From the NCBI GenBank assembly GCA_905221615.1, contig CAJNDT010006141.1, forward strand, positions 248,001 to 312,000: a DNA stretch of 64,000 nucleotides. Reading direction: 5' to 3'. The first letter of the stretch is position 1; every line of letters starts with the position of its first letter. This DNA is from Symbiodinium sp. CCMP2592 (Eukaryota; Sar; Dinophyceae; Suessiales; Symbiodiniaceae). Shown in pieces: positions 6,323 through 63,499 of the stretch. The translations under genes were made by a program, and so were the position numbers. The notes beneath the pieces were generated by a model. That model ran no database searches and was not told the origin of the DNA. It worked only from the letters and a program-made list of their open reading frames with translations.

Positions 6323-7399
6323 TCAGGGCTGAGGGAGCGCAGGACGGTAAAGGGTGTGGAACTGCAAAGGGCACAGCAAAGTCCTTGTGGCACCGGCGTG
6401 TTGCAGCAAGCGCGCAGCTTCGATGTGACCTCCAGGACAAGCGACCACCGCAGTCAAGCCGTTGTTGTCGGCAAATCCTTGTCGACCGCGGCTTCTAACT
6501 CTAGCAAGCGCGCAACTTCAACATGGCCTCCTTGACAAGCGACCATCAGGGCAGTAAAGCCACTATTGTTGGCAATGTGCTTGTCGGCTCCGGCTTTCAG
6601 CAACAAGCGGATAACTTCAACATGGCCTTCTTCACAAGCGAGCATCAGGGCAGTGAAGCATTCGTTGTCGGCAATGTCCGGGTTGGCTCCGGCTTCTAGC
6701 AGCAAGCGCGCAACTTCAACGTGGCCTGCTTCACAAGCGACCATCAAGACAGTAATGCCCCGGTTATCGACAATGTCCTTGTTCGCACCGGCTTGTAGCA
6801 ACAAACGTGCAACTTCAATGTGGCCTGCTTCACAGGCGAACATCAGTGCAGTGACGCCGTTGTTGTCGGCAATGTCCTTGCTCGCACCAGCTTCTAGCAG
6901 CAGACTCACCACTTCAAAGTGGCCTTCCAAAGATGCTGTCATCAACGGACTGTTGCCGTCTGCATTGGTTGAGTCGGGGTCCAGCGGCTTCTGCAGCACA
7001 GCCTCCACCTGGCGGCATTCAAGCTGGAAGTTCGAACATGTCTACCCAAACTTCGTAGAGAGAAGGGCTACTTCCGGGTTCGAAGGTGCATTATGATATA
7101 GGAACACGAGCCTCGTTCTCGATCCCGTTCCTGGCGGCAGTCACCAGCTCATCTGCTGAGGCGACAGATGCAGGATGATACGAGACTAGGAGCAGCTCCA
7201 GGTCCCGAAGCGAGTCCAGCTGGGCAACATCTTCTAAGAGACGGCCTTCATGAAACAGTCTTTGCCTGAACCGCGTAGGCAAGCCATGCAGCCGATGAAG
7301 CCACTGCTTTACTGACTTCACATCGCTCAACTCCTCCGAAGGTATGCTCGCCACCAACTCCCCCGAGAGCATCCTGACGTGCAGCATCGCCGTCGACAT
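6323..7399 (-). CDS. Ubiquitin-like plus ankyrin-repeat protein, last repeat frameshifted
   Basis: Exon 1 (7112-7399) encodes a ubiquitin-like N-terminus: MLHVRMLSGELVASIP and LPTRFRQRLFHEGRLL, matching the usual start of symbiodiniacean ankyrin proteins. A 103-base GC-AG intron (7009-7111) joins it in phase to exon 2, giving ENE then VEAVLQKPLDPDS. Exon 2 carries about five ankyrin repeats of 33 residues (DNNGVTALMFACEAGHIEVA and close copies). One base is missing from an A run (plus strand, 6473-6475), giving a stop at 6454; in the shifted frame the ankyrin sequence continues (NNGLTAVV, HIEAARLL) to 6323. The lesion removes only the last repeat, so the product may still fold. A sequencing error in the homopolymer is possible. 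Partners are unknown; ankyrin repeats bind proteins. Confidence 0.88.
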
Positions 7400-7613
7400 C
7401 TGGCACAGCCGATGGCTATCGGGCAGAGACCTAAATCACCAAATCTTAAAAGCCAAGGGGCCGGGGGGCCCTAAACCCCACATCCCGAAAACCCAAATGC
7501 CCTCAAGGACCTTGAATTCTCCACACCTTGCTGAAACATGATGCACAGGTCAAACTTACATGCACGGAGGATGATACTGGCCTGTCAAAGCTTCGGAACC
7601 CGAGAGGATCCTA

Positions 7614-13506: not shown

Positions 13507-13612
13507 CCTAAGGGTCCATGTACCCATATAGAGATACATGAGCCCCAAAGTACCTGTTTAGGGACTACATTAAGGCCAATGTATATACTATATGAGTACA
13601 TGGACTCTTAGG
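13507..13612. mobile_element. Foldback element, family E, abutting the MYND/RING pseudogene
   Basis: CCCTAAGGGTCCATGTACCC pairs with GAGTACATGGACTCTTAGGG. Its right edge is about 30 bases from the stop of the MYND/RING sequence. Confidence 0.82.
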
Positions 13613-13644
13613 GTGGAACTGTGGAACCTGGAGGACTTCACAGA

Positions 13645-14270
13645 TCAAGTGAACCCACTGTGGATTGCGCAGATGCCTCCAGTAACTGCTGCACGGCAAA
13701 TCGGACAGCCATCCAGTGTCTGCATCGTCCTCCCACAACTCTGGCAAACAGCAAGTATGTCCACACGGAATCAGCGTCCACGAGGCGGTTGCCGCACAAC
13801 AAATGATGCACGTAGTCTTCAGTTCCGCCAGCCTGCTTTCCAACGATTGGTTTTCTTCCGGAGCTCACGTACCATTTTCTGCCTCTCCTCCAGCTCTTCC
13901 AGGATATCGACACAATCGAAAAATTCACCGGAATCCGTAATGGTATTAGCCGATCGAGTGGCCGCCAAAACCTCAGCTTTGCGATGCAATGCAGAGCGGC
14001 ATTCTGCTTTGTGCACCGGCCAGTGCTGAATTTGACAAGCCCGGGAGCATCGCGACTTTGCACCTGCGGCAAAGATGTTTAGCCTTGCGACCGCATGTGA
14101 AGCAGCTCCCGGCCGGGCCGCTGCTGCTCATGGACTTGTGTTCCACATCTGCTTGGGCCCACCAACGGCTCTGGTCGGCCTACGCAACATAACAACGCGC
14201 AGACGGCTCTGGTTCTTGCATAGAGGCTTCGGGCCATCTCATGGTCTTTCCTGGTCTTATCTGCCATCAC
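13645..14270 (-). pseudogene. MYND plus RING finger gene with at least three frameshifts
   Basis: Reading across frames on the minus strand gives an ordered protein. Near 14131 it starts with SSSGPAGSCFTCGRKAKHLC and CRRCKVAM, then QHWPVHKAEC, which together form a MYND zinc finger (paired CxxC, then C and H-K-x-x-C). A helical stretch follows (ILEELEERQKMVREL, SLESRLAELK). The end is a C3HC4 RING of the IAP/MDM2 type: CIIC, IPCGHTC, CQSCG, CPICRAA, with a stop at 13645. Frame breaks fall near 14050 (inside the MYND), near 13850 and near 13755 (inside the RING). Upstream reading (KDHEMARSLYARTRA, to 14270) suggests more N-terminal protein and a further break. RING proteins of this type are ubiquitin ligases. 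No intron is seen, which would fit a retroposed copy. Confidence 0.72.
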
Positions 14271-43711: not shown

Positions 43712-43985
43712 GGTAGTAGTAGTAGTAGTACTCGTCGTCGTAGTAGTCGTACTAGTCGTAGAGTAGTCGTTGTAGTAGCAATAGTAAAAGTATTAGTAGT
43801 AGTGGTCGCACTAGTACTAGTGGTAGTGGTAGCTGTAGTAGTACACTGTAGTAGTAGTTGTTGTTGTTGTTGTTGTTGCTGCTGATTGTTGTTGCTGTTA
43901 TTGCTGCTTGTGGTGGTGTTGGTCTTGTGGTGGTGATCGTTGAGTATGTAGTAGTAGCAGAGCGGTAGTATTGGTATAAGTACAT
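43712..43985. repeat. Compound GTA/GTTG microsatellite
   Basis: GTA runs, interrupted by GTCG steps, pass into (GTT)n and back. The minus-strand frame reads poly-Gln, poly-Asn and poly-Thr here, which probably marks an intron of the gene starting at 44562. Confidence 0.88.
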
Positions 43986-46370: not shown

Positions 46371-46491
46371 CGTGCCACCCGGCGGCCGCCTTCATTTCAC
46401 CTTTGCGTCGTGCATCTCCTTGTGCAAGAACCCGGTGGGGGCTCAAGCTCTGGGAAACTGGAGGGCTTCATCGAAGATCCCACCGATGTAA
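46371..46491 (+). CDS. Plus-strand exon candidate
   Basis: After CTGAAG the plus strand reads VPPGGRLHFTFASCISLCKN, then PVGAQALGNWRASSKIPPM and a TAA at 46489-46491. It is stop-free for 39 codons and GC-ending in codon choice. No domain is recognised. A second plus frame is also open here. It directly precedes the perfect telomere-type array at 46509. Confidence 0.3.
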
Positions 46492-46508
46492 CTGAAATTG
46501 TTGTGTTG

Positions 46509-46557
46509 TTTAGGGTTTAGGGTTTAGGGTTTAGGGTTTAGGGTTTAGGGTTTAGGG
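46509..46557. repeat. Perfect (TTTAGGG)7 telomere-type array
   Basis: Seven uninterrupted TTTAGGG units, the telomere repeat of plants and many dinoflagellates, sit inside the window and not at an end. Flanks are ordinary decayed repeat on both sides, so this is an interstitial array. Confidence 0.95.
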
Positions 46558-47673
46558 CATAAACCCTCAACCCATGCAGTAAGGTGCCGGATGTGGTTTT
46601 GTGGAGTTTCCAAACAAGAAACCTGTAGGTGTGAAAAGGGATCCCTCCGAAGGCCGCATTCGACTGGCCCGGGCTTAGAGTGCTTGTTGAGGTTCTGTGC
46701 GGGAGTAGGATCTGGGATTTTGGGTTCTAGGGTTTAGGGCTCTTTCAAGGGTATGAGTATGAGGGTTCTATGAGAGCTACTTAGGATTATAATATAGAGC
46801 CTGTAGTGTTCAGGCCGGGGTTGAGTTGAGAGGGCAGCAGCCCTGTATCGAAACCGAAAACTCAAAGCCTGAAACCCCAAACTACAAGGCCCAATCGCCT
46901 CACCTTTTTTTGCGCTAGAGCGATACATTGGGATTCGGAGACTTAGATTAGGGTGTTTGCGGGATGTATTACACCATAATTGAAGTAAGGACCGCTGAGG
47001 AACAGTAGTACTAATTAGTACTATGTATTCAGCTGTCAATCCCATGCTGCCAAACATCACCAGCTGGACTCTTGAGCCACCATGGGGGGTTTGGTTAAAG
47101 AACATAAGCAGGGAACCGCCTTTCTTCGAAATCTCCTCCACGAGTAGCCTGCATCGGGGACCTCAAGAATGACAGCCCTGATTCGAAGTTTAGGATTGAA
47201 GCATTAGAGCACGAAACCTCGAACCCTAAACCCTAAATTTCAAGTCTACGATTGCCGATATAGTCCTTTTATGTCCTCTTGAGTTCATGCTAAGGGTCAA
47301 GGAATAGAATTCGCAGTGCTGTTCAGTTAAGGCTCTCTGTGAAAACTCGACTAGTGGGACATCGTTTATAGTACTTAGGGTTCACGTGACACTGTCCTTG
47401 CGAAAACCTGAACCGCAAACCACAACAACGAACGAACCGAAACACCCTAAACTGAACCCAAACCCGAATTCAACAAGGTCAATCCCCCGAGCCCCACACC
47501 TTACACCCTTCGCGACCCCCACACACAGACAGGCCTCAAGCCGAAACACCCTAAAACCACCAAACCACTACGACTCTGAAGGCCGCAGCCTCAATAAAAC
47601 CATAGAGCCTAAGTCTAAAGCTAAACCTAAACCCTAAACCCTAACCCCTAACCCCTAAACCCAAAGCCTAACT

Positions 47674-50600
47674 GGATTCTCCTGGAGAACCTGCCATTTG
47701 CGTGTTCGCTCCTGGTGCGGAAGGCTGACGGCATGGTCGGTTTGGGGCGTCGGGGTCTTCCCAGAGAGCCCAATACCCCTTAATTAAGGAATATACCTAA
47801 AATCATTAGGGCCATTAGGGGCTTCATAGTATGATTTAAGCTATATTCGTTAATTAAGAGGTATTGGGCTCTCTGGGTACCTAGAGGGGCATACCCACCC
47901 CTGTTGTAGCGGCACCTACGTCTCTATACACGAAATCCTAAAAAACTGTTAGGCAAGGGGGAGGGGCCGGTTATGATCCTCCAGGTAATTTCAGGCTTCG
48001 GGCGGCGTCGAGTTTTTTAGGCTTTAGGCGTACATGCCACCTTCAGGGCCTGCGTTGTTGGAGTTTGGGGATTTAAGGATTTAGGGCTTAGGGTTCAGCG
48101 GTTTGGGGTGTGGTTAGTTAGGGGTTTAGGTGTTATGGGTTTAGGGATTTGGGGTTTAGGGTATCGGGGTCTGCTCGTGGCATATCCTGAAGTTCAGATT
48201 CAGGAAGGGTATGTAAGTAGATTGGGTGAAGGATCTGGGATTCGGGAACTGGGTATTAGCTTCTTCACAGTTAGAAGCATGCTTCTACAACTCTTAAATA
48301 ACATCTTGCAACTGCAAATATTAATGCCAGCGCCTTGCTGCCTGCTGTGTCACCTCATCCAGAAGCCGACTCGTTGTTTGACGTCAGGCACAACCCTGCT
48401 TAAGACTGGTATCTTTCCAATCGCATGATTATCCTGAGTTTTGCATCAATGTGACTTACCTGGCTAAACCCCAAACTCTGAACCCTGCACGCAAAGCCCT
48501 ATATCCCAACCGAAGCAATAGCCCTAGAGATCTACTTCATTAAGACCGTAAGATCCGGCATGCAAAATCAAACGTGGCAGGATTTTGATGTCCTTAACTA
48601 CACTACGCTAAAGAACCCTAAAGGCTAGCCGTTTAGGAACACATGCAAGAACCCGTATAGAAAGCTTTTTAGGAACCCTTCCAAGGGGTACTATAGGGTT
48701 CTATACTAGGGTCCCTTCAAAGGGTACTATATAGTCTCCCTTTCAACACGTACTATAGGCTCCTATAAGTTACAATGTAGGGTCCCCTATAAATCCTAAA
48801 CCCTCAACCCATAAACCCCCTTTCGAGAGCCGGTCCTGCTCACGCCGACCTTCTTCTTCCTCATCTGCTCGATGCTTCGCTGAGCATTCGTCAAAGAGCT
48901 GCGGGTCGGCCTTTACTCGAATTTTTATAAGAAAACCGAGGGTTCTAAGATTTAGGAACTTCGGGCTTAGGAGTTTAAGGTTTAAAGTTTAGGGTTTCAG
49001 GGGTTTAGCGTTTAGGGCTTTAGGGGTTTAGGGCTTAAGGGCTTAGGGCCTAGGGTCTGCAGAGCTTAAGGGTTTCGGAATTAGGAGATAGGGTTTTAGG
49101 ATTTACGGCTTAGAAAGGCCTTTACTCGGCTTGAGGGCCTGTGGCCTTCAGTCCAAATTCGGATTGAGGAGTTTAGGGATTACGGTTTAGGGATAACCAG
49201 GACCCCCCAATGGCCCTTTAATGGAGCCCTAATGGCCCTTAATAGTAGGTATTTGGGGTTTATTAGAGGGTAGTTGGGGGGTCTAGGAAGGGTAAAGGGA
49301 TTAGAGATTAGAGTTCAGGGTTTAGGATAGTTTAGATTCCAGGCCCTCTAGCATTGGCGGATTTGGTGCTCTTTAATTTCTGGTCCTGAGGTCTTCAGGA
49401 AGTTTAGCTGCTATCAGCATTTGTGGATCTTGTTTTCATCTGTGCTCACTTGGTGCTGTTGGTTGGTGCATCAGTGCTATGAGTTTTAGTGTTTCCATGT
49501 GGGTTGGCCTTACCCTGGGGATAAAAATAGCCCAAAAGCCTTGGATAGTATGGTCTTTGGGCCCAAAAGCCTTAAGATATGAGGCCTTAGAGCCCGAGGG
49601 TCAGACATCCTGAATGCTGCCACTATTCTTGCTGTGGCGTATTGTCTGAGCGCCATTCGGTTTCCACCGGGGCACAGCCCATCAGTTGCACGAAGACGCT
49701 GGCTTAGGAATGCTACGGCAGTGAAGCAACAAAAAGACACAACTATGCCAAACGGGGCAGTGGGGTTCAGACTTGCAAGGGGTAGTGTTTACGGTGAAAT
49801 ATAGGAGTGGGTTAACGATGAATGTTGGAGGCAACGAGCTTAGGGTCCAGCGAGGGCTTCGGTTACAGAACTTAGGCTCTTGGGCTTCGATTTTGTGCTT
49901 TTTGAAACATATGTGGGTTACTCCTGTAAATTAGGGTCCCATTTAGGGTCCTGGTTATTAAGGGTGCCGAAAGACCCTTAATCTAAAGAATTAACCCATG
50001 TCATGAAGCAGTAAGTAATACAGCACCCCTGCTACTTTAGGGGCCAAATATACCTATAATACAATTGGCCCCAAACCCCTATTCTAATTATTGCGGCCCC
50101 TACAGGGATCTATAGTAACCCTTAGAGGGAACCAACCCTTAAAGGGAACCCTTTAAACAAACCCTGCATTTATGTGACCCTTTTAGACCCCTTTACAAGG
50201 AAATCTAGTCGAATTCTTCAGGACCCCTATAGTACCCATGGCCGCCACCTCCATGAGCAGCTTCAGCACATTGAATGTCAAGCCATGCACCTGGGTTGTA
50301 CAACAAAGGTTTTACTAGGGCTCTGTAATTAAGAAAAGTAGACGAAGGCATCTGAGCATGCAGAACCTGCAGCACTTTTGCAACTGCCCATCATTGAAAA
50401 CCGTGCCCTCGTGCATTCCAAGCCAGGTTTGCATCTACGATCGAACGTGCAAGCACCCTCAACGACGAGGACTTCCCGGTATCATACAACCTTGCATAAG
50501 CTTCACGTAGAAGACTGCCTGAGACGGAGCATGAAGACGTTTTAGCCAGCATGCAATCTCAAGCACTGTTGCACACACACACACACACACACACATGCTT

Positions 50601-52500
50601 CTGAAGTAACATGGCTGCTATGGGAGCTTCGAGAACGGTCCCAGCAATGAATACTTGGGTTTTGCGGCTGGGTTCATGTAGATTCCTTGAGGCAGTGAGG
50701 TTGGGGGATTGTTGCTCCTTGGCTTCAGGGATGGGGAACTCTACAATATATTTACCCAGGGCATATTGGAAGAGGAGGGAGGGGTAGAGCTATGCGGATT
50801 ATGTGAGTTGGGAATGCAAGAATGCAGATGCTCTGGGGCTTGGAGTGAAGCTTAAGAGCTTCCAAAATTCAGAGTGCTTGTGAGGGCTTCTTCTTAGAAG
50901 TAGTGTAGGAACCTGATCAAGAAACCTTGGGCCTTTATTCGGGTTCCTCATATGAACCCTACTAAATTAGGGTGATGGGCCAAGGGTTTCTTAATCAGGT
51001 TCCTACATTAGCTGGGACGCTATGGGGCGTGAAGACCTGCAATCTCACCAGGGATCTCTGATGGGTTCCGGCTTTGGTTCAGCACGGGTCTCTGAGGCCA
51101 GGGCCGCGCTATTCCAGTGCTGCTTTGAGTTCTTGTAAAGGGCACCGATAATGATCGGGAACAGCTCCTGCAGATGCATCGCAAAGTCGCGTGCTTGAGT
51201 CTTTTAAGTCTTTGTTTCAGGGTCCGAGATGCCACGCTTCGCCAAGACGCTGAACAGTTTTGCTGCACCGAGGCCCTTTAGAAACCATGTCGTGAGCAAG
51301 CGGCAAATTAGCCCAAAAAGGAGCTATCCTGCTTACCCCAAGGTTCCGTATACCTACACGCAGTTCAGTATGGAGGAAGCCCGTTTAATACCTCAACCCT
51401 AAGAGTAGAGCCCTGAGCCCGAGCACCAAACTCTAAACCCTCAATTTTCAAGGTAAGGCAACTACCCCTAAAGTCTAAACCCTTTAGGACAAATACACCA
51501 ACCCGACCTTCCGCGGACTCTTTTCGGGAGCAGCAAAAGCAGCCGGGAGTCTGGGTTCTGGTTAATCAAGAAGTTTTGAAAGACTCTGTTCAGCCAAAGG
51601 AGCTGGCTCTGAGCACCATACTAAGGGCTGCAGTTCCAGATTGAATGATATGTTCCCCTAAACTCTAAACCTTCAAGCCCTAAAACGCACCCAGAAGTGG
51701 ACACAGTGCTTCCTGCCGGTTCGCGTTGATCAACTTCACGATGTAATCCTCAACACCGCGCGGAGGGAAACCCAGAACCATCCTAACACCGGAACCTCAA
51801 GTTTTGAAGCATCCTAGGTCCTAACCCTCGGCCGAAAGTCAGGGGCATAGTGCAAGCCCTGGCTTCCCCAACAAGATGGTAAAGGTTTAGGGTTACTCGG
51901 GGTTGCTCAGTTTAGGGTTTAGGGCGTGATCAATGCCATCAGAGGATTGAAAACAGCACGCGCGCCAGATCGTTAACACACCACTCATGTTGCGGCCATA
52001 GCAATTGGCGTTTCACCCAAGTTTGCCGGAGGGATGTGCATGCATATACATGCAAGTAATACATACATGCGTACATGCATACATGCATCCATAAATACAT
52101 ACATATAAACTTACATACATACATACATACATGCATACATACATACATAGGTAAATAGACATAGACATAGACATAGACGTTGACGTAGACACATATACAT
52201 ATAGATATATATATATATATATGTATGTATGTATACATATGTACATACACAAATAAAATGCCGTTGTTTGACATCGACATAGGCACATACATACACATAT
52301 GTGTGTATATGTACACGTATAGATGTACGTGTGTGCGTGTGTACATGTGCGTGTGCGTGTACATGTACATATACATGTGTATGTATATATACATGTATGC
52401 AAATCTATATCTTCTCATATGTAGAGCTATATAACAACAAGGCTCCCTATATATGTATATAAATACATACATACATACATACATACATACATACATACAT

Positions 52501-52547
<47 letters not shown>

Positions 52548-52549
52548 TG

Positions 52550-52584
<35 letters not shown>

Positions 52585-55500
52585 GTATATATAAGTATTT
52601 ATGTGTTTATGTGTATATATACACACACTTGTGTGTTGGTTTTGCACACACACACACAAACTTACAGGCATGCATGGTGCATGCTGTACACGAGCCCACA
52701 TTTGTTTGGTCTATCTGCTTATTCAGTGAGCCTGTCCCTTCTGGGGAATCCTACCAACTCGAACCCCAAAGCCCCTAAATCCTTAAACCCCTAACTCATC
52801 CTTCATCAGCTGTCAGCCAAGACTCTGTGTTCCAAAAGAAAAGCGTCCTCTCGGCTACCTGGCACCCAACGAGACATACTAAGCTGCTGCTTTTGGGAGC
52901 TACGGCCCCCCGAAAACCTAAACTCTAAACCGTTGCTAAAGCTGTAGGATTTGTTTACTTGGTTTTTGCGTTGGTCTTTGAGCTAGGCTTGGGTTTGAGG
53001 TTTAGGGTTTTGGGCCCTGGGCGCTGGGCGTAGGTTAACAGCTAGGGCATAGGTTTGCGGGTGGGAGTTTAGGAGTTTCAGGTTTGCGGTGCTAGCTGTA
53101 GATCAGGGGATTTGAGTTTGCGGTTCAAGCCGAGTTGTACTACAACCTGAACCTCAGCATTTGGGTGTATGAAGGCATATGCTTCGACCGGCAAACATCC
53201 GGAGAAAATGACGGAGCTCAAGATTCCTGACGCTTTCCCTAGCCCGGTGGGGCTCCAGGGTTCGAGAGTTCGGAGTTTGCCGCATCTGCCTTAACCCCAA
53301 AACTAAAGGGGCCGTAATGATTGGAATAGGGTTTTGGGGCCCATTATACTATAATCAGAATAAAGAACTCCCAAAATATCCCCAAACAGTATAAGCAAGT
53401 ATTACGGCCCACAACAGTACCCTACCTTGTTTATTGACTTGTATATATGAATCATATTAAGGAAGCCTAGGAAAGCAGGTTTCTTAGGCTCCCGGTCGTG
53501 TCTGGGGATTTCAGGCTTCGGGGCTGAGCCCAATACCCCTTAATTAAGTAATAGACCGTCAATTGTAAGGGAAAATCATGTTATGATTTAAGCTACATTC
53601 CTTGATTCAGGGGTATTGGGCTCTCTGTCTTAAGGGCAGTTAACCTCAAACCCTACCTGCCCTATCTTAACCCCCGGAACAAGAACATAAGAAGGACACT
53701 TAAAATGGCGGGCTTAAGGTAAGCCCTAAACCCTAAACCCGAAACCCAAAAAATAATCTAAACCCTACTTGGAGGGCAGGGGACTTAGTAAGTAGGTTAT
53801 AAGTAGGGTGTAATTGGAGTAAGTCCATTTAGGGTACTTCTAACTCTACTTATAACCTACTTACTAAGTCCCCTGCCCCTCCGAGTAATCCCTTCAACTC
53901 TGAAGCCTAAAAGCCCTAAACTCCATGACCCCCTGTAGATCCCTTCAAAGGGACCCTTAAAGGAACCCTGGAATTGCATCTCTGGCCTGGAAGTGGGGGC
54001 AGGTGATGCACAGCGCAAGGCGCCGGAAGAGGACGTCCTGGCAGGGGATTTACGGGTTTAGGGGTTTAGGGTTTAGGGCAAGGGCTGCGGGGGTCGAAAG
54101 AATTGTCGATACCATTTTGTTTGCAAATTTTGGGCTGCGTCCCGATGGACTCGACAAGCCATTCAGAATCAGAATCAGAATACCATTTTGGGGTTCCTCT
54201 GTATAACTATAACCATAGTACTGTAAAACTTTATATAACTCACGAAAAAGACGAATATCCGAATATCCATACCCAATGCCCTGGTTTGTGTAGGTCTTCT
54301 AGGGTCTGGGGCATATACGGCTTAAGGCTCAAGGTCCGTATCGTATCAACCTCCAGGAGTAGAGGCCTGAATACGAAGTAAGCCTGCCCCCTCCTAGTCT
54401 AGGATACCCAGTAACCTAAAAATAAAAAGGCCCCTCTTTTTGGTATAAGGGTACTACTGGGCATCCTAGTAGTCCCCAAGGCCAAAATCAAAGCCTGAAG
54501 CTCCGAATCCGGGGAACTCACTTTCTTAAGAACAGGAGACAAGAGCCCAACAACCCCAGGTTCATGGTCCCATAGATACGGCATGCTGAGGGCTTGGGCT
54601 TCTGTAAGGGTTCAGGATGGGAATCAGCAAGCTCCAATGCAGCAGGAGCCAAGATGCAATCTTCGGGAGCTTACTTCCAGAACTCAGAAACATTCGCAGA
54701 ATCTCGAACCCAAGCCCGATGCAAACCTTTAGAACCCATTCAGGACAACAATGCACTGTCAGCCCGGAACACGAATTGCTATATGACGAAATCCCAGCTT
54801 ACGAGTCACCGGTCCTGCATGCGGTGGAACTCTGGCGGCTGGGTCAGTTCGAGCGTCTCCTGATCACAGGCGTTCAAGTTTGCACACGTTAAGTCACTGA
54901 CTTAGTCTCAGAACACACTTCTTTAGGTTGTGTATATGTGCAGGTGTATATACATACACTAGTACACGATGAGTCACCATCAAAGCCGCATCGAAGTTCG
55001 CAACAACCAGGACGAAGTTGGGAATTTCATCTGCCCTTAGGGACTTGTCTGGAATTCCTTGTGGGCTTCAGCCTCAGCCATATGGGAGTTTCCGACAACA
55101 GGAGATCCTAAAATAGCACCCTAAATAGTGAGATCCTTACTATAAGGACGCCAGAATACAAAAACTCGCATGGTTGATGCTACTGTATTCTCAGGCCCTC
55201 ACCCTAAGGGTCCATTTACCTAAATAGTATATACATTGGCCTTAAAGTAGTCCCTACATAGGTACATCGGGGTCAAAGTACATACTATTTGGACCCTTAG
55301 GGTCAGGCATGCACAAAGCACCGTCGAGGCTCTGGGGCGTAGGGCGCCTTAACCGAGCCTTCCCTGTCGCCCTAAGCACCAACTCTAAATCGAGAACCAG
55401 AGGTGCAAAATTCAACCCGCTTTGTATTATGATTTCCGTTTACAAGTCCTGAAAGCTTCAGGTTTTAAATCCCTCAACATGCCTCAAGAGCCAAAACTCT

Positions 55501-58500
55501 GTAAGAATGGTATCCCTAAATCCCTCAAAGACCTCTGCACTGCCTCCAACTCATTGAGGAACAACACCTGCTTAGAGGTGATCGACACCTGCAGAAGCCG
55601 GGCTACTACGGCTCAGAGTTCAGATGTCAGGGCTTATAGGGCTTAATGTTAGGGCTACAAGTGCACCAGATGCGTGACCTGAAGTTGAAGATTGGCCCGG
55701 AGAAGGGGACGCAAAACATAATTTCGTGATATCGGCTTTTGAACTGCTTGTTTCAGCTGCCTCTGGTGAGCATCTACGCTCGGAGAGATGTCTAAAGACA
55801 AGCCTAAGCCTTGCCGAACCTGAAGGGTCCATATCCATATATTACTATTGTGGAACCAGGTTCCCAAAAACCACAATAAGGATGGTCTTTGGGAACCAAT
55901 TCCATAATCGTAGTATATGCGTGGACCCTCTGGTGACGTTTCAGCACCTTGCATCTTCTCTTTCTAGCATCCAAGGTTTATAGGGTTTAGGGTAGTACGT
56001 AGCTCCCACACCGAGCAGTCTAACGAGCTGACCCACCCAAAGCTGAAAATCTAACCTAAAGACTATAGACTGCAGCCTATGGCCTATGCGCGATCTTTTG
56101 AGGCTCTAACCGACAGCCCTGAGCACCTCTCTGGAGTTGTGTTTTCGATGTGGTGATTTCAGAAAATGGAAAGCTTCATACTTGCAAGGACCCTGAAATT
56201 GGGGTTTAGGGCTGAAGGTTCGGGGAACCCTAAAACCAAGGTCCACCACCCGGCGCAGTGCTACAAGAACAAGCTGTGGGCCTGACATTCGTTCTGAAGT
56301 CTGAGGGCTGCGCGGGCCAGTAGCGCAGCATCGAGGTTATGATGTCATACGCCAGGCGCGGGTCCTTGCCACGAGCTGGATCTGTGATTTCATATCTGGG
56401 AATCACCGAACTGTAGGTACGGTGGCGAGGAAATGTGAGGACTATGTGAATTCTTGTTTTGTAGCGAGCATGTCCCAAAAAATTGCAAAGGAGCCTTTTC
56501 TACTCACCAATGCCAGCAAAGTGTCCATTAGTCCTAGTCTTCTATGGCTGACCGCCGAGATGCGGATGAACTTCTTCTTGCGAGTGTTGAGTGCTGGTTT
56601 GGTGGCTAAGTTTTGCGCTGCTGCGGTTTGTCTGGTTTCAGGGCTTACAAGGTTCCATGTAACGACGAAGCAGTTTAACAGTTTAAACAGGTGGCCAACC
56701 AGAATCTAGGAGCAGAGCAGACCTGTAATCCAGGGATGCGTGAAAAAAGTACTACACTAGCACATCTACAGATTCAAGGTCACGCTCCGAAATGTATTGC
56801 ACTCCAAGGGTTTAGGGCCGCATGGTTTAGGCTTTGTTTTTACTGGACCTTTTTTCTCCGGCCCGGCAGATTAGGGGCTTCGGATTTAAGGGTTTGCAGC
56901 CAAGGAGTTTAGGAATAGCAGGCAATAGCAGGGGTTCAAAATTGAGGGTTTCTGTGTTCAGGGGCTCGGGTGCTTCCGGGTGTTGAGGTTCGGGGGTGTG
57001 GGCTAGGGGCTTAGGGGTTAGGAGTCTTCTGTGGTAGCCTTTGTCTGCTGCAGAACAACAGGGAAGTCTTATCCGTGATACGTGCACGGGGAGTGTTCTC
57101 TACCATCATTTGTAGGCCTCTACTACGACAGAAACCCTGGCGACTCCGTGCCGGCAACGGGGCTTACGGCGGAAACTGTAACGGAACGTAGTGGAGCCGT
57201 AACGGATTTGTCGCGGAGCTGTAACGGACCTGTAAAGGAGCTGTAACGGAGCTGTGACGGAAGCTGTAACGGAGCTGCAGAAGCTGCAACGGAGCTGTAA
57301 CGGACCTGCTACGGAGCTGTAACGGAGCTGTAACGGAGCTGTAACGGAAGCTGTAACGGAGCTGTAACGGAAGCTGTAACGGAAGCTGTAACGGAGCTGT
57401 AACGGAGCTGTAGCGGACCTGCAACGGAGCTGTAACGGACCTGCAACGGAGCTGTAACGGAAGCTGTAATTGAGGGCCCAGGGTGGGTAGCGCAAATCCC
57501 ATAGTAAATGATGGTAGAGAACACCCCCAACGGGCTTCGAGTCTAGATTTCAGCGCCGGCAGAAGAGATGAATGCGAAGGGCAAGGGGTAAACTGGAAAC
57601 AACCACGACGTGTCAAGTCCTTCTCAACATATTGCGCCATGCAGTAGGACAACTGCTGGTAGAAGGAAGCCAGGGACTTCACCTGCCAGCATATTCTCTC
57701 AAGATGAGTACGCAGGCATGCCTTCTATAACCGTCGACTGCTAAATTGCAACCCAAGTGCCTGAAATGCCGCGATGCCCTAAAGCCTGAACCCTACTTAG
57801 AGGTTCATGGGTAGCTTGTAACCCATATCATGGGACTTCTGCCCCCGCTTATAACTACCCATGAACCTCCCAGCGAACCCTCAGCCTTTCATTGGTCACC
57901 AGGGTTTAGGGTTTAGGGGTTTTGGGTTTAGGGTTTTTGGGTTTAGGGTTTAGGGGTTTTGGGTTTAGGGTTTTTGGGTTTAGGGTTTAGGGGTTTTGGG
58001 TTTAGGGTTTTTGGGTTTAGGGTTTAGGGGTTTTGGGTTTAGGGTTTAGGGGGCCAAACTCTCCAGATTGAGCCCTATGTACCGACCCGGACTCAGAAAC
58101 TCCCAAATTACTCTGGAGTTTCTAATGTGAAACGGCAATATAGGAGCCTTAATAATTAGAATAGGCTTCCTTTTAAAGGGTCTATGAAGGCCACTAATTA
58201 TGAGGGCGGTTATAAGGATGTAATGTAGGGGCCTTAAGACTTAGAATAGGGATTTGGGGCCCGTTATGCTATATTTTATAATCAGGAGCCCCCAAATATA
58301 GTATGGGTAACTATTTAAGCCCCTGTATGGTGTCTGCGGTGCTTAAGCATTAGGAAACTGTGGCTGATTGCCCGCTCCGACTGCCTAACCTCCGGCTAGA
58401 ATATTGGTAGTTATCAAAACCCTAAACCCTTTATGGGTACCCTAAATCAATAATAGGTGCCGTATTATAATAGGGACCCAAAAAGGGACCCTTAAAGGGA

Positions 58501-61500
58501 CCCTTACTTTGACAACCACTCATGTGCATTTCTACTAGGGACCGGTATCAGAAAACCGTAACCATCATAACAAGGAGCACAAAGCCCTAAACCCATCCCC
58601 AAATCCTAAACAGAAAGGAACCCTAGAAAGGTAGTTAGGTTGAAATGTTTGGGATGGTTTCGGGCTCAGAGCTACGAACATGGAGCCATAACTTCGAACA
58701 ACCCTTGATTTGAAGGGTTGGACTCAAAACAGGACTCGGCTTGATAGGTTTAGGGCGTCGGGCGTTAGGGTTTAAGGTTTAAGAAGAAACTTCTGCTAGT
58801 TGCAGAGCTGAACATCTTTGCTGTCGGCTTACTAGATCTTTTCGTCTGAAAAAGCTGAAACCTTCTGCCTTACACTGCTTGGAGCAGTCAGACCGCCCAT
58901 AGAGACCACATTATTCCAAGGGTTTAGGATCCAGGGCTTGTATCTAAGCACCGGAATATTACATATTGGAGCCTGCATGGCATACTGGGATATCAGCTTA
59001 TGCAGCTTATGCATTGATGCCTCAGAAGCCCAGTATCCTGCAAAATGCGGTGCTCCTTTAAACCGAAGCCCTAGTCTCCTTCGTAGTTCTATTTTTTGGC
59101 GAACCAGCTTTACGTATAGGGTCCTGTAATACATACACTTGGCTTGCAAAAGCGGAGCTACATTAGCTGCATGCATTGGGTTCTATAATATATTGGGTTG
59201 TCTATCAAGAGAAGGAGCTACGAAGGGTATCCTAAGACCCTAAACTGCGCTTTCTGCAGTGCGACATGAGCTTTCCCTAAGGGTCCATGTGCTCATATGC
59301 GTGGTTGTCAAGATTAGGGTCCCTTTATGCGTCCCTATTATAGTACGGCACCCATCATTTAGGGTACCCAAAAAGGTATCCTAATCTTGACAACCACCCA
59401 TAAAAACTCGTACAGTATATGCTTTGTCCTCGAACAAGTCGCTATACAAGCACTTCAGGGCCGAAGTATCTGCCTGGGTAGCTCTCTACATACGGGTCCC
59501 TTTTTAGGTCCCCCAAACAGTACGGCACGGCACCTTTATAGGAGGGACACGAATTTAGAGAACCACCCACATGGGCCCTTAAAGGTTTGACAACCCTCGA
59601 CCCGGATCTGTGGGAACCCCATGAAGCCTTGTGCAGTGGGATGAGAGCTTTGATCAGGAAGTCTTTGTGCTCTTCTTTCAGCGGAAGAGCAAAGCCTCTG
59701 TTTTTGGGGCTTCAAGGTCAAAAACAGAGGGTTTGGGGCTTAGCGGTCAAAAACAGGGGGTTTGGGGCTTAAAGGTCAAAAAAAGATGGTTTGGGGCGTA
59801 AGGGTTGGATTTTAGGATGTCGGCTCGGAGCAGGCGGCTTCGGAGAGCAGGGCTTGGGATTTGGTACTGCGGCCGACGATGGGTGATGGGTGCAAGCTGT
59901 GGGGTTTGGGCCTTGCGGCCTCTTGGATTACAGTCTCGGGTTTAGGGTTGAAGGGCCAGAACCGTGGCATGCTCATCTCTCCAAGCCATGACAAAAAGAT
60001 GGTCCCTAAACCCTGAACCCTAAACCCGAAACATGACTGGCATTCGGCATTCCAGTGCAGTCCCGGCGCAGTTGCAGTCTGCACTACCCATTAATCGAAA
60101 ACTATTCAATCCAGGGCCTTAGACAAAGCGTATACTATACTTGTATTCTGTTGTACCAGGTTCTTATACTATGAGCATTACCATTCAGGAGCCCTAAACG
60201 TCAATTAACGATGAAACTGTTTAGGCCCCATTTTGGACCACTGCATTCCTTTATGGGCCTTATACTATTCGCATCGCCGATGAGAAGCCGTTGATGGCTT
60301 GGGGATGGAGGGACCCTTGGTTTAGGCATCTAGGGCTTGCTTGGAGGTTCATAGGCAGTTATAAGTAGGGTGTTATAAGTAGAGTAACTATACTTAAAGT
60401 CCATATTAGTGGACTTATAACTCCACTTATCACTACCCATGAAACTCTAAGTAGGGTTAAGGGATTTAGGATTTGGGGTTTATGGTTTCGGGGTTTAGTG
60501 CTGAGGGATTTTAGGGTTTAGGGCTTGGGGTTTAGAGATTTAGGGCTGCAGACAAGAAACCGTTGATGATGCTGCCCAAAATCTCGAGCAACTCGCCAAC
60601 ACCGTTGTGAGTCTCAGATTCGTAGATGACCTGTGCCGACCGGCGGAAATCTTATCGCTACATTACTATGCCATAAGTATGCGTCTATAATTTCTAGTAT
60701 GCCGATCACGTCAGTTAGTTTAGTGTACAAAAAGATATCTGATGCAAGGTTCATAGTTCTTAAGACTATAGCTACATTGTGGTAGAACGGCGGAGCGGCG
60801 GACATCTGCCTCCTACACGGGAGCTCCTATCATGATGGCAACTGCCCGAACCATCCGAGACCTTATAGGCAAAACAGATCCTCACCGGCTCTTAACCCAT
60901 CTGAAATACCCTATTTCTTTCGGGCTCCTTAGTCTGCTCTTCTTCTCTTATCTAACCCTGAGGGTCCATGTACCCAAATAGTAAGTACTTTGGCCCCAAT
61001 GTACCTATATAGGGACTACTTTAAGGCCAATGTATATACTATTTGGGTACATGGACCCTTAGGGTATGTTCTTTAAAAAGCAAATTCTTTAGGGACCAGG
61101 TAGGCCCAAAACGACAGCAAGCAAGGCCTTGAAGAAGACGTGCTGAATAGCCCGTCGGATGAAGGATCGCAAGGCCATGAATTTGCCTGGCTTAGGGTTC
61201 AGGGTTTAGTTTAGGGCTTAGGGTTTAGGGCCTAGGGTTTCGAGGTTAGGTTTTAGGGTTTAGGGGCGCCGCTGCAAGAATAAGTGCAAGAGGGCAACAA
61301 GAATAGCCAACCGGATCTGTACGGACACCTTCTTCGTGGGGCGGTATTGCCCGTATCATCGAAAGCGGCAGTGGAAATATCACGACTAAGTACGGCTTTT
61401 GGTCGTGTCAGACTATCAGTGCTACAAGCAACACTGATATTCTCATGGTGGGATGGACTTTTGATCTTTTCTGTAGGTTCCGCGAAGAAATGTTGATATT

Positions 61501-63499
61501 TCGGATAACTGGACGAGTTCACCGTGGAAAGCCGGGCAGACGACGAAGTTCTTAGTCTTTAGTCGGCATTCCAGGGTTTAGGGCCTGAGGCATGCTAAGT
61601 TATAAGCTACTTTCAACAGACCAACTCTGAACCTGGCAAGAACCCAGAGAGCCCAATACCCCTTAATTAAGGAATATACCTTAAATCATTAGGGGCTTCA
61701 TAATATGATCTAAGCTATATTCCTTAATTAAGGGGTATTGGGCTCTCTGGGAACCTTTAACAACGCGCAAGATCAAGTCAACAGCACAGCAAATGTCCCT
61801 AAACCCTAAACCCCCCCTCCGGCCGTAGATGCGGTGCAAGATCGTCTTCAAGTAATCCCGCTCCCGTGGATCCTGGCCAGGACAGCCCGGGAGACTGCCA
61901 GCTGGTCAGATTCTGTAGGGTCTAGGGGTTCGGGGTTGAGGGCTTAGGGTGTAGGGTCTAGGGGTTCGGGGTTGAGGGTTTAGGGTGTAGGGTCTAGGGT
62001 TCGGGGTTGAGGGTTTAGGGTTTAGGGTGCAGGGTCCAGTGGTTCGGGGTTGAGGGTTTAGGGTGTAGGGTCTAGGGGTTCGGGCTTGAAGGTTTAGGGT
62101 GTAGGGTCTAGGGGTTCGGGCTTGAGGGTTTAGGGTGCAGGGTCCAGTGGTTCGGGGTTGAGGGTTTAGGGTGTAGGGTCTAGGGGTTCGGGCTTGAAGG
62201 TTTAGGGTGTAGGGTCTAGGGGTTCGGGCTTGAGGGTGTAGGGTCTAGGGGTTCGGGGTTGAGGGTTACTTAGCTTCGATGACAGGCTCCCAGTCGCCAC
62301 AGCTACCACTAAAAGGGCATTTACTACGCTTATGTCTAAGGCAGAGGATCTGGACCATGCAGCGCGAGCCTGCTAAGACCCCGCTAACTGTAACTCACTC
62401 CCCCGATAGACAATGGAGGAGAGAGGCTACAGACAAGCCACGGAATCGATGTATTGGTTAGGTATTGGGAACTAAGCCAAGACTCCATTCAACCAGAGGA
62501 AGTGAAGTGTCTGCCAGCCCTTGAACAGAAAAGCCATGCTCGCCCAGAGCCCAAAACCGTTTAATGAAGCAATGAAGTGCAACCGTACGAAGCTTTCATG
62601 TGCGCTCTAGAACAATGCATGTAAGCATCAAAATGTGAACCTGAAGCACCAACCCCCCGAAAGTTTAAACTGAACAAAGCTCGCAATAGCAGCAATGTAA
62701 TTGTCTTAAACTGCACCAAACCCTACAGTAATCTTTTCCCCACTGAGGAGAAGAACGACCTGACGAACGAGAACAGCAAAGGTGGTCAGTAGTCAGGGTA
62801 TATCCTAGCATGATCAGAACGGGGCTCTGCGAGGATGAAGGGTCACAAAAGACCCAAAAATGCAATGCTGCTGAAGCCCCACAGCCCCAAAGTTTGAACC
62901 CGTCGAGATTCAGGGACCCTGAGCCAGAAATACGAACCAATCGAACATCCCCTTGCACTCCTGCAAAAAGGCTACCGTAAGGGTACCATAATGAAGAGAA
63001 CCCCATGTTAATATGGTTGTGAAACCTGTAATATACCCTCAAGGCCTATTCTAATTACGAAAGGCTGTCGAGTAAATCCTGTAAAACCCGACTGAAATAC
63101 ACCCATAATAAGGGCACCGTACCGGAATCGCTAACCTTAACCCCTTCAAGCAACCTTTATAGCAACAAGTACAGTTCACCTTATAGAGCCCCAAAGCAGG
63201 CCTAATTCGTATGTAACCGATAATCTCTAACCGCTCGTAATCCTAAACCCCTGTCAACCCGAAATCCTAAACCCTAACAACCTAAACTTTAAAGCCTAAA
63301 TCCGAAACCCTGACTAAACCCTCACAGCCTAAACCCTAAGCCAAAAATCCTCGAACCGGATCCCTCAGAGTATCCCCTAAGGACCCCTTAAAGGAACCCT
63401 ATTCTATTTGTTTAGGTCCCTTTTGTAGAACCCGGAGACCTCGGAATCGAACAGCTCCAGGAGCTTCAGCATGAAATTCTGATCGACGAAGCGCTTGGC
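47674..63499 (-). CDS. PPP2R5: PP2A B56-family regulatory subunit, partial, at least 15 short exons
   Basis: This encodes the regulatory (targeting) subunit of protein phosphatase 2A, a HEAT-like helical scaffold that binds the A/C core and substrates. Fifteen minus-strand exons carry successive conserved B56 segments in correct order: 63440-63499 (KLLELFDSE), 61824-61872 ([16 protein letters not shown]), 61128-61186 ([12 protein letters not shown]), 60561-60630 ([12 protein letters not shown]), 59628-59695 ([13 protein letters not shown]), 57620-57682 ([16 protein letters not shown]), 56314-56364 ([14 protein letters not shown]), 55533-55588 ([12 protein letters not shown]), 55002-55035 (tentative), 53987-54037 ([15 protein letters not shown]), about 52823-52858 ([10 protein letters not shown]), about 51108-51194 (YKNSKQHWN), 50249-50290 ([14 protein letters not shown]), 48850-48910 ([10 protein letters not shown]) and about 47674-47711 ([10 protein letters not shown]). 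Phases agree at nearly all checked junctions. Donors are GT, GC and one GA. The N-terminal exons lie beyond the right edge. The C-terminal end is uncertain: either a stop follows at once or another exon does. Known from the family: segment order. Seen: the segments and junctions. Inferred: that all belong to one working transcript. Confidence 0.9.
47762..47876. mobile_element. Foldback element, family F (AGAGCCCAATACCCCTTAAT)
   Basis: AGAGAGCCCAATACCCCTTA pairs with TTAAGAGGTATTGGGCTCTC around ATTAGGGCCATTAGGGGCTT. Copies at 53527-53626 and 61646-61752 have the same ends; all three lie in the PP2A subunit gene. Confidence 0.87.
50905..51008. mobile_element. Foldback element, single-copy type in this window
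   Basis: GTAGGAACCTGATCAAGAAA pairs with TTTCTTAATCAGGTTCCTAC around TTCGGGTTCCTCATATGAAC. It lies in the PP2A gene between the exons near 51108 and 50249. Confidence 0.82.
52050..52640. repeat. Long compound (TACA)n/(TA)n/(GTGC)n microsatellite region
   Basis: About 600 bases of ATACATAC, TATATA and GTGTGCGT steps. Open frames of 80-200 codons on both strands are tyrosine/isoleucine or methionine/cysteine repeats and are not genes. It lies in an intron of the PP2A subunit gene. Confidence 0.95.
53308..53420. mobile_element. Foldback element, family C, in the PP2A gene
   Basis: GGGCCGTAATGATTGGAATA pairs with AGCAAGTATTACGGCCC around TATACTATAATCAGAATAAA. It lies in the intron between the exons at 53987 and about 52858. 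Confidence 0.82.
53527..53626. mobile_element. Foldback element, family F, in the PP2A gene
   Basis: GAGCCCAATACCCCTTAATT pairs with GATTCAGGGGTATTGGGCTC. The interior is diverged (AGACCGTCAATTGTAAGGG). Confidence 0.85.
53768..53883. mobile_element. Foldback element, family G, in the PP2A gene
   Basis: GAGGGCAGGGGACTTAGTAA pairs with TTACTAAGTCCCCTGCCCCT around GTAATTGGAGTAAGTCCATT. It lies in the intron downstream of exon 53987-54037. Confidence 0.87.
55079..55172. mobile_element. Foldback element, family A, decayed right end
   Basis: The left end CATATGGGAGTTTCCGACAA is clear; the right end is reduced to AAAAACTCGCATGG. It lies in an intron of the PP2A subunit gene (between the exons at 55002 and 55533). 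Confidence 0.75.
57175..57470. repeat. Tandem array of GAGCTGTAACG-type units
   Basis: More than 20 units of 11-12 bases (GGAGCTGTAAC, GGAAGCTGTAAC, GGACCTGCAAC). Translation gives only periodic low-complexity peptide in every frame, so the open frames here are by-products. It fills part of the GA-AG intron between exons 57620 and 56364 of the PP2A gene. Confidence 0.92.
57901..58052. repeat. Telomere-derived minisatellite, 37-base unit, about four copies
   Basis: The unit alternates TTTAGGGG, TTTTGGG, TTTAGGG, TTTTTGGG and TTTAGGG. Copies are almost identical, so expansion was recent. It lies in the PP2A subunit gene between exons 59628 and 57682. Confidence 0.9.
58218..58326. mobile_element. 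Foldback element, family C, in the PP2A gene
   Basis: TAGGGGCCTTAAGACTTAGA pairs with GTAACTATTTAAGCCCCTGT around TTATGCTATATTTTATAATC. It follows a partial related copy at 58140-58210. Confidence 0.8.
58404..58526. mobile_element. Foldback element, family B, in the PP2A gene
   Basis: GGTAGTTATCAAAACCCTAA pairs imperfectly with TTACTTTGACAACCACTCAT; an extra GGGACCCTTAAAGGGACCC has been gained near the right arm. It lies in the intron between exons 59628-59695 and 57620-57682. Confidence 0.8.
59296..59402. mobile_element. Foldback element, family B, in the PP2A gene
   Basis: GCGTGGTTGTCAAGATTAGG pairs with CCTAATCTTGACAACCACCC. A second, decayed copy starts about 75 bases further on (59478-59573), so two insertions lie side by side in one intron. 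Confidence 0.85.
60341..60452. mobile_element. Foldback element, family D, in the PP2A gene
   Basis: TTGGAGGTTCATAGGCAGTT pairs with TCACTACCCATGAAACTCTA. It lies in the intron between exons 60561-60630 and 59628-59695. Confidence 0.82.
60959..61068. mobile_element. Foldback element, family E (GGGTCCATGTACCCAAATAG)
   Basis: GAGGGTCCATGTACCCAAAT pairs with ATTTGGGTACATGGACCCTT, with a mirrored interior CCTATATAGGGACTACTTTA. It lies in the intron between exons 61128-61186 and 60561-60630. Other copies: 13507-13612, 16803-16910, 55196-55303. Confidence 0.87.
61646..61752. mobile_element. Foldback element, family F, in the PP2A gene
   Basis: CAGAGAGCCCAATACCCCTT pairs with AAGGGGTATTGGGCTCTCTG with nearly perfect ends. 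It lies about 70 bases from the exon 61824-61872, on its downstream side. Confidence 0.88.
61915..62268. repeat. Telomere-derived minisatellite, about 38-base unit, nine copies
   Basis: The unit contains TAGGGTGTAGGGTCTAGGGG followed by TTCGGGGTTGAGGGTT. Variants (CAGGGTCCAGTGG, TTCGGGCTTGAAGG) alternate, showing a higher-order pattern. It lies about 45 bases upstream (minus sense) of exon 61824-61872. Confidence 0.9.

Follow-up and report, generated by a model that had tools for sequence, protein, structure and literature searches.

Introduction

The described systems closest to the locus reported here are the nuclear genes of other dinoflagellates, the dinoflagellate introners, and the noncanonical introns of euglenids and diplonemids. 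For Polarella, Table 2 of PMC10666404 lists GT, GC and GA donors at 28.8, 52.7 and 18.5%, AGG acceptors at 96.9%, a mean exon of 105.7 bp and a mean intron of 1408 bp; the same table gives exon means of 99-120 bp in three Symbiodiniaceae. In the portions of the introner literature drawn on here, Amoebophrya introners carry inverted repeats (PMC7789003), and in Symbiodinium microadriaticum introner insertion creates a 4-bp target duplication that supplies the 5′ splice site (PMC9860276). We analyzed a window of 64,000 nucleotides (nt) from Symbiodinium sp. CCMP2592 (bases 248001-312000 of contig C5279), most of a gene for the B56 (B′) regulatory subunit of protein phosphatase 2A (PP2A) being encoded on its minus strand. 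We find that this gene is real and intact, that a tandem copy lies upstream of it, and that the introns of the locus are on average antisymmetric, resembling their own reverse complement, an arrangement that looks unusual. With moderate confidence we propose that insertion of inverted-repeat elements gave rise to these introns or enlarged them and that the transcript folds so as to bring splice sites nearer to each other.

Two tandem B56 genes

Seventeen exons on the minus strand, from 63499 to 46392, can be joined by the rule G[C/A/T]...AG into 288 codons plus a stop with the frame unbroken. An earlier, sequence-only reading had described fifteen exons of 34-90 nt forming a complete B56 gene that ended at 47674. 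Its identification of the gene was borne out: the motifs it named (10/10) all lie on the minus strand and follow the order it gave (VAER is found once more, by itself, on the plus strand at 43954), the joined draft matches the B56 profile, the exons are collinear with agreeing phases once GC and GA donors are allowed, and the exon share that it put at about 5% measures 5.07% of the span. Its limits had to be redrawn. The 17 window exons are 27-75 nt long; there is one exon further, at 46392-46418, the TAG at 47668 being intronic by comparison with P0001, a transcript-derived protein of 485 aa with source labels jgi and mmetsp; and residues 1-196 are encoded outside the window by 14 upstream exons at window-scale 64776-78556 (window numbering continued past 64,000), within 15 kb upstream of the window. 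The whole gene, hereafter copy 1, has 31 exons and 30 introns in 32165 bp and encodes 484 aa. Its exons are 19-75 nt long (mean 46.9, median 45) and its introns average 1024 nt. The exons within the window are:

63440..63499, minus strand: exon 15, first in the window, 20 aa, donor GT
61824..61872, minus strand: exon 16, 17 aa, donor GC
61128..61186, minus strand: exon 17, 19 aa, donor GC
60561..60630, minus strand: exon 18, 23 aa, donor GT
59628..59695, minus strand: exon 19, 23 aa, donor GC
57620..57682, minus strand: exon 20, 21 aa, donor GA
56314..56364, minus strand: exon 21, 17 aa, donor GC
55544..55588, minus strand: exon 22, 15 aa, donor GC
54815..54859, minus strand: exon 23, 15 aa, donor GA
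53987..54037, minus strand: exon 24, 17 aa, donor GC
52826..52858, minus strand: exon 25, 11 aa, donor GA
51713..51748, minus strand: exon 26, 12 aa, donor GA
51105..51167, minus strand: exon 27, 21 aa, donor GC
50249..50290, minus strand: exon 28, 14 aa, donor GT
48836..48910, minus strand: exon 29, 25 aa, donor GA
47682..47711, minus strand: exon 30, 10 aa, donor GA
46392..46418, minus strand: exon 31, the last, EMHDAKVK plus stop TGA, beyond the interval first read as the gene

The corrected window protein aligns with P0001 without a gap and is identical to it at 287/288 positions. A homologue search with the first-draft protein returned 5368 proteins, and P0001 stood at the top of the best 120 of these 5368. 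A draft made from the window alone (282 aa, one junction wrong) matched Pfam B56 (PF01603) at 6.2e-119, with 398 bits against a curated cut-off of 25 and over most of the domain (profile positions 131-411 of 413), and among human B56 chains of solved structure its best match reached 1.7e-111 (B56 delta). The upstream exons were assigned by alignment with P0001, which itself bears PF01603; there is less certainty about the junctions of exons 2-4, where the protein diverges from P0001 by about nine residues as counted by eye. Exact 7-mers of P0001 residues 197-484 covered 281/288 residues on the minus strand, and none on the plus strand or in the reversed sequence. Members of the B56 family are further defined by their ability to bind PP2A A/C and LxxIxE ligands. 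In domain and collinear exons the gene is like the PP2A B56 (human PPP2R5) family, and no novelty was seen in the protein. Among viral contigs there were no relatives of P0001, among bacterial and archaeal contigs none was confirmed, and Rfam gave no match in the window.

The second gene, copy 2, lies at window-scale 107981-89404 (C5279:337404-355981). We located 26 of its exons; its first exons were not found, and a run of N occupies window-scale 109501-114500. Its protein is identical to P0001 residues 65-485, so P0001 is the product of copy 2 or of an identical gene. Between the copies 147/421 codons differ, and only two of these differences alter the encoded product, one being the copy-1 stop. 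Over these 421 codons dS is 0.91 and dN 0.006 (dN/dS about 0.007), which indicates that both copies are constrained; both are old and under strong purifying selection. These values also bear on the idea that the locus is a pseudogene or an assembly artefact, for which one could cite exons making up a mere 4.5% of the gene span and the N run near the start of copy 2. Against it stand 484 stop-free codons over 31 exons, acceptors of a single form at 30/30 introns, the low dN/dS, and a single residue unlike P0001 among the 288 of the window, and we consider it very improbable. The sequence-only reading had itself named transcripts that skip these segments, or an intact B56 gene elsewhere with stops accumulating here, as observations that would tell against it. 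P0001, from copy 2 or an identical gene, contains all of the segments; other B56 genes do exist, and both copies are without internal stops.

It had also expected such a gene to be poorly visible to mechanical search, and a six-frame PF01603 search of the 1.098-Gb genome indeed gave four matches, none of them on C5279. Two paralogues were noted elsewhere. One, at about 165857-174472 of contig C471, has modelled introns of 51-827 nt, apart from one gap, and almost no telomere-like words. The other, at C1178:65106-66428, is a B56-like gene whose 1003 aa form one open frame, with main pieces 37-55% identical to P0001; it is possibly a retrocopy-derived paralogue.

Splice signals and gene form

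The 55 introns of both copies are 171-2895 nt long and use GC (31), GT (12) and GA (12) donors. Every acceptor is AG/G, with the slash at the intron-exon boundary (30/30 in copy 1, 25/25 in copy 2), which is the combination of donors and acceptors that characterizes dinoflagellate noncanonical spliceosomal introns. The consensus carries about 4.9 bits at the donor (-4 to +10) and about 7.7 bits at the acceptor (-20 to +4), mostly in the exon-end G, the +1 G and AG/G. No +5G is visible at the donors, and the window introns show no pyrimidine tract (56% vs 52% background). The span of copy 1 contains 677 AGG for its 30 acceptors. Within the coding sequence introns occupy 11/17 AG/G sites in the window part and 16/26 in the whole gene.

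As far as the consulted part of PMC10666404 goes, the donor mix, the AG/G acceptors and the short exons are like those of dinoflagellate nuclear genes in Polarella, Symbiodinium and Prorocentrum, and intron length is nearest to Polarella; the exons of copy 1 average 47 nt, in contrast to 99-120 nt in Polarella and Symbiodiniaceae, and 30/30 of its introns end in AG/G. A gene for a CCT chaperonin on contig C352 of the same genome, found with a bait sequence and with approximate exon borders, is likewise divided into at least 22 exons (roughly 67 nt) within 4.4 kb. That tiny exons set among repetitive introns make a striking gene form for such an organism is therefore not sustained, published dinoflagellate genomes and the CCT gene being similar. 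Tiny exons and mixed donors are normal for such an organism, and the gene form is mostly ordinary; what distinguishes the B56 locus from the two other genes examined (the C471 copy and CCT) is its long, repeat-filled introns. Beside this we noted three CCT-type chaperonin frames (542-597 aa) at C5051:1023267-1027412 and 128155-129663, near-whole in profile and stop-free, in contrast to the CCT delta-like gene on C352 with its at least 22 exons.

Antisymmetric introns

The notable feature of the locus, which falls outside the claims of the sequence-only reading, is how the repeats are oriented by strand with respect to the splice sites. Across the 55 introns, TTTAGGG-type tracts cluster at the 5′ end and CCCTAAA-type tracts at the 3′ end. 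One such array precedes an acceptor:

61914..62267, minus strand: CCCTAAA-type array ahead of the exon 16 acceptor, with a TTTAGGG-type partner after the exon 15 donor

When overlapping telomere-like words were counted in the 16 window introns, the first third held 99 of the G type and 40 of the C type, and the last third 6 and 269. Tract orientation in these introns exceeded circular shifts (p 0.003-0.006 over three runs) and did so when the three introns that had prompted the comparison were removed (p 0.025). Six kinds of statistic were tried on the window set, and our conclusions accordingly rest on 39 unseen introns, 14 from copy 1 and 25 from copy 2. For these the orientation sum was 13.86 with a null standard deviation of 2.65, and 0/3000 shifts were as large; 28 introns were positive, 6 negative and 5 zero. 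Within 100 nt of their donors there were 15 G and 3 C tracts, and within 100 nt of their acceptors 4 G and 17 C.

GC skew gave the same picture. By intron decile (n = 55) it started at +0.195 and ended at -0.237; it was +0.176 at donors and -0.167 at acceptors, with a reversal in 47/55 introns (p 3.7e-8), and in 41/55 when telomere-like words were masked. Compared by halves, 29/39 unseen introns (p 2e-5) and 13/16 window introns (p 0.005) agreed. We rejected the idea that antisymmetry is confined to long introns: of those of at least 700 nt 26/32 agreed, with the skew reaching 350 nt inward, and of those under 700 nt in the same genes 16/23 also did (p 0.012). Length-matched AG/G decoys were nearly skewless (mean difference 0.013 vs 0.204 in introns). 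Furthermore, the first half of the introns and the reverse complement of the second half correlated in 4-mer content with r 0.86, as against 0.45 without reversal. In the titles and abstract openings of the papers listed on dinoflagellate introners, telomeric repeats and introns, interstitial telomeres and intron GC skew, with subscription journals thinly covered, we found nothing on telomere-like repeats oriented by intron ends.

Telomere-like words reach 28.3 and 41.4 per kb over the two B56 gene spans. Elsewhere on the contig they average 11.8-19.2 per kb in three other parts and 0.3-0.6 beyond 120 kb, and on five other contigs they number 0-1.5 per kb in 11/12 stretches and 15.0 in the twelfth. 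Within window-scale 115001-125000 the density drops from 19.6 to 0.4 per kb between adjacent 5-kb bins at 120 kb; a stretch of C352 (L019) is also rich in these words, and the genome has patches of such repeats.

An alternative origin would be old DNA joins, in which fragments healed with telomere repeats were fused head to head, leaving TTTAGGG and then CCCTAAA between exons. CCCTAAA does tend to precede exons and TTTAGGG to follow them, the order of a telomere-capped fragment, and the words are patchy across the contig and the genome stretches sampled. However, 25 of the 26 comparable intron positions are common to both copies (the exception is intron 30, found in copy 1 alone), which makes the positions older than the present repeats; G..AG/G is retained in each of the 55 introns; and the skew remains without telomere-like words. 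We regard an origin by such joins as improbable.

Foldbacks and other repeats within the introns

Imperfect palindromes of 83-122 bp, 67-86% self-complementary and of several families, lie in at least nine window introns:

61643..61751, no strand assigned: palindromic foldback, family 1, intron 16, 86% self-complementary
60955..61065, no strand assigned: palindromic foldback, family 2, intron 17, 82% self-complementary
59296..59402, no strand assigned: palindromic foldback, family 4, intron 19, 77% self-complementary
55824..55929, no strand assigned: palindromic foldback, intron 21, 73% self-complementary
55197..55307, no strand assigned: palindromic foldback, family 2, intron 22, 67% self-complementary
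53766..53887, no strand assigned: palindromic foldback, family 3, intron 24, 79% self-complementary
53526..53627, no strand assigned: palindromic foldback, family 1, intron 24, 69% self-complementary
50901..51010, no strand assigned: palindromic foldback, intron 27, 69% self-complementary
49201..49283, no strand assigned: palindromic foldback, intron 28, 67% self-complementary
47760..47877, no strand assigned: palindromic foldback, family 1, intron 29, 82% self-complementary

Three foldback families recur elsewhere in the window. As imperfect palindromes they are like foldback (MITE-like) elements; here they are internal to introns, which they lengthen without creating splice sites. The 16 window introns resemble one another only in their foldbacks and telomere-like tracts, and no full-length family was found among them; many near-identical copies across a genome are a further mark of introners. 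Intron 20 also contains a minisatellite at 57176-57469 with an 11-bp unit (CTGTAACGGAG type) in about 26 copies, and self-comparison of the contig is dominated by minisatellite.

Intron 30 and the comparison with introners

Intron 30 is present in copy 1, with AGGAGA at both borders, and its site in copy 2 is without an intron. Its features are:

46419..47681, minus strand: intron 30, 1263 nt, copy 1 only, no intron at this site of the tandem copy, direct repeat AGGAGA on either side
47626..47671, minus strand: telomere-like 5′ arm of intron 30, TTTAGGG sense; over 47 nt it is 91% complementary to its 3′ counterpart
46510..46556, minus strand: telomere-like 3′ arm of intron 30, CCCTAAA sense, stopping 91 nt short of the acceptor

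In these respects it resembles the S. microadriaticum introner insertion and the inverted-repeat introners of Amoebophrya. Inverted repeats that could draw exon borders together, direct repeats at the borders and an intron found in one copy only are shared with dinoflagellate introners as the cited portions of PMC7789003 and PMC9860276 present them; unlike those, the inverted parts in the B56 introns are telomere-like, long and usually not terminal.

Predicted folding of the introns

Minimum-energy folds were predicted for introns of up to 1400 nt, longer ones (2/16 window, 5/39 unseen) being left out. In the predicted folds of the 14 window introns the ends were closer than in rotations (p 0.0008), in rotations cut at AG/G (p 0.0019) and in AG/G decoys (p 0.0001). 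The 34 unseen introns behaved similarly against rotations (p 0.0008) and decoys (p 0.0001; 24/34 below the median), and against AG/G-cut rotations p was 0.0014, with 20/30 below the median, four of the 34 having fewer than four AG/G cuts and being left out of this comparison. Exchanging the final 40 nt for those of a different intron made a difference in the window set (p 0.003), where local complementarity of own vs other ends gave p 0.13.

Such closeness would be expected if selection on the pre-mRNA kept complementary ends, of whatever sequence source, since their pairing defines introns with weak motifs. In favor of this are the predicted closeness relative to AG/G decoys and rotations in two sets of introns, the persistence of skew after masking of telomere-like words and its 350-nt reach in introns of at least 700 nt, and the 16/23 agreement (p 0.012) in introns under 700 nt. 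Euglenid and diplonemid noncanonical introns are also described, in the consulted parts of PMC4770533 and PMC12621601, as pairing their ends, with folding predicted to join them as here; unlike those introns, as these parts depict them, the B56 introns have AG acceptors throughout, show no enrichment of fixed pairing positions, and in the unseen set pair without specificity. Specifically, euglenid-type pairing of +4..+6 with -8..-6 occurs in 4/55 introns, against 3.9 expected from mismatched ends. This result counts against selection, as do the fact that a foreign 3′ end works equally well in unseen introns (p 0.32) and the lack of a significant pattern in two other genes, and we think selection on the pre-mRNA an unlikely explanation, though a better one than old joins.

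Other observations in the window

On the minus strand at 6457-7435 an ankyrin-repeat frame follows a weakly ubiquitin-like frame, perhaps as one gene with a short intron, and at 13568-14127 neighboring minus-strand frames have weak MYND and RING-type zinc-finger matches, below cut-offs. When window 1412-46390 was scanned frame by frame against Pfam, on the minus strand only, the ankyrin-region matches and one sub-threshold match elsewhere came up, and nothing more. Applied to one frame of the known B56 stretch, the identical scan scored just 22.2 bits, below the cut-off of 25, so a frame-wise scan is weak for such genes.

Discussion

The proposal we favor is that the introns of this locus were begun or enlarged by inserted inverted-repeat elements, either introner-like or foldback. 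An inverted-repeat element would read alike in both orientations, and the arrangement would therefore arise regardless of gene strand. The transcript would then fold, bringing the two splice sites of an intron nearer, and this folding may help a spliceosome whose splice-site consensus holds little information. Strand-independent antisymmetry is most simply accounted for by inverted-repeat insertion, selection for closing and telomere-end joins being possible alternatives.

Several observations weigh against this proposal. The copy 1 model was built from genomic sequence and comparison with P0001, which is the product of copy 2 or of an identical gene. When tracts in the two halves of the 16 window introns were compared by a plain Fisher test, the outcome was not significant (p 0.13; p 0.045 for tracts of at least three words). 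The copies share ancestry, and 7/25 paralogous intron pairs retain some sequence similarity (the others none detectable). Skew reversed in 5/12 usable introns of the C471 B56 copy (p 0.30; 5/17 introns without a clean junction were left out) and in 15/21 of the CCT gene (p 0.17); telomere-like words number 0 and 1.0 per kb in the introns of these two genes. Intron-specific end pairing had to be rejected, 3′-end swaps giving p 0.32 in the unseen set, and closeness is more plausibly a feature that the ends have in common than a matter of private pairing. Intron 30 may reflect either gain in copy 1 or loss in copy 2, the C471 paralogue being ambiguous at the site, and its 3′ arm lies 91 nt inside the acceptor. 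By the published test, an introner has, no more than 30 nt from each of its ends, an inverted repeat of 8-20 nt together with a direct repeat of 3-5 nt. Exact inverted repeats of at least 8 nt so placed are present in 4/55 introns, about 1 being expected from mismatched ends, and junction direct repeats are barely above mismatched pairs. Most introns thus lack the terminal repeats of introners, and with the inverted part in only 4/55 we do not file them as such. The want of significant reversal in two genes with short, word-poor introns suggests that the pattern may be confined to the repeat-rich locus; antisymmetry may be a trait of repeat-rich regions, not of splicing at large.

In practical terms, a six-frame domain search of the genome misses both C5279 copies of B56. 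Dinoflagellates select tiny exons amid weak splice signals; here about 5 donor bits and 8 acceptor bits must pick 30 acceptors among 677 AGG. On a wider, tentative and rather doubtful reading, introns in telomere-repeat-rich parts of the genome might be reverse-complement-symmetric units, with telomere-like sequence running inward from both splice sites. Their symmetry would both record how they arose or grew, by insertion of telomere-ended inverted repeats or by telomere-to-telomere joins, and close the intron, allowing exons of ~45 nt to be recognized where splice sites carry next to no signal. Strand antisymmetry of introns is simple to measure, and existing assemblies allow it to be examined across whole genomes. 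Should it extend past this locus, it would link the growth of introns, telomere-like repeats and splicing.

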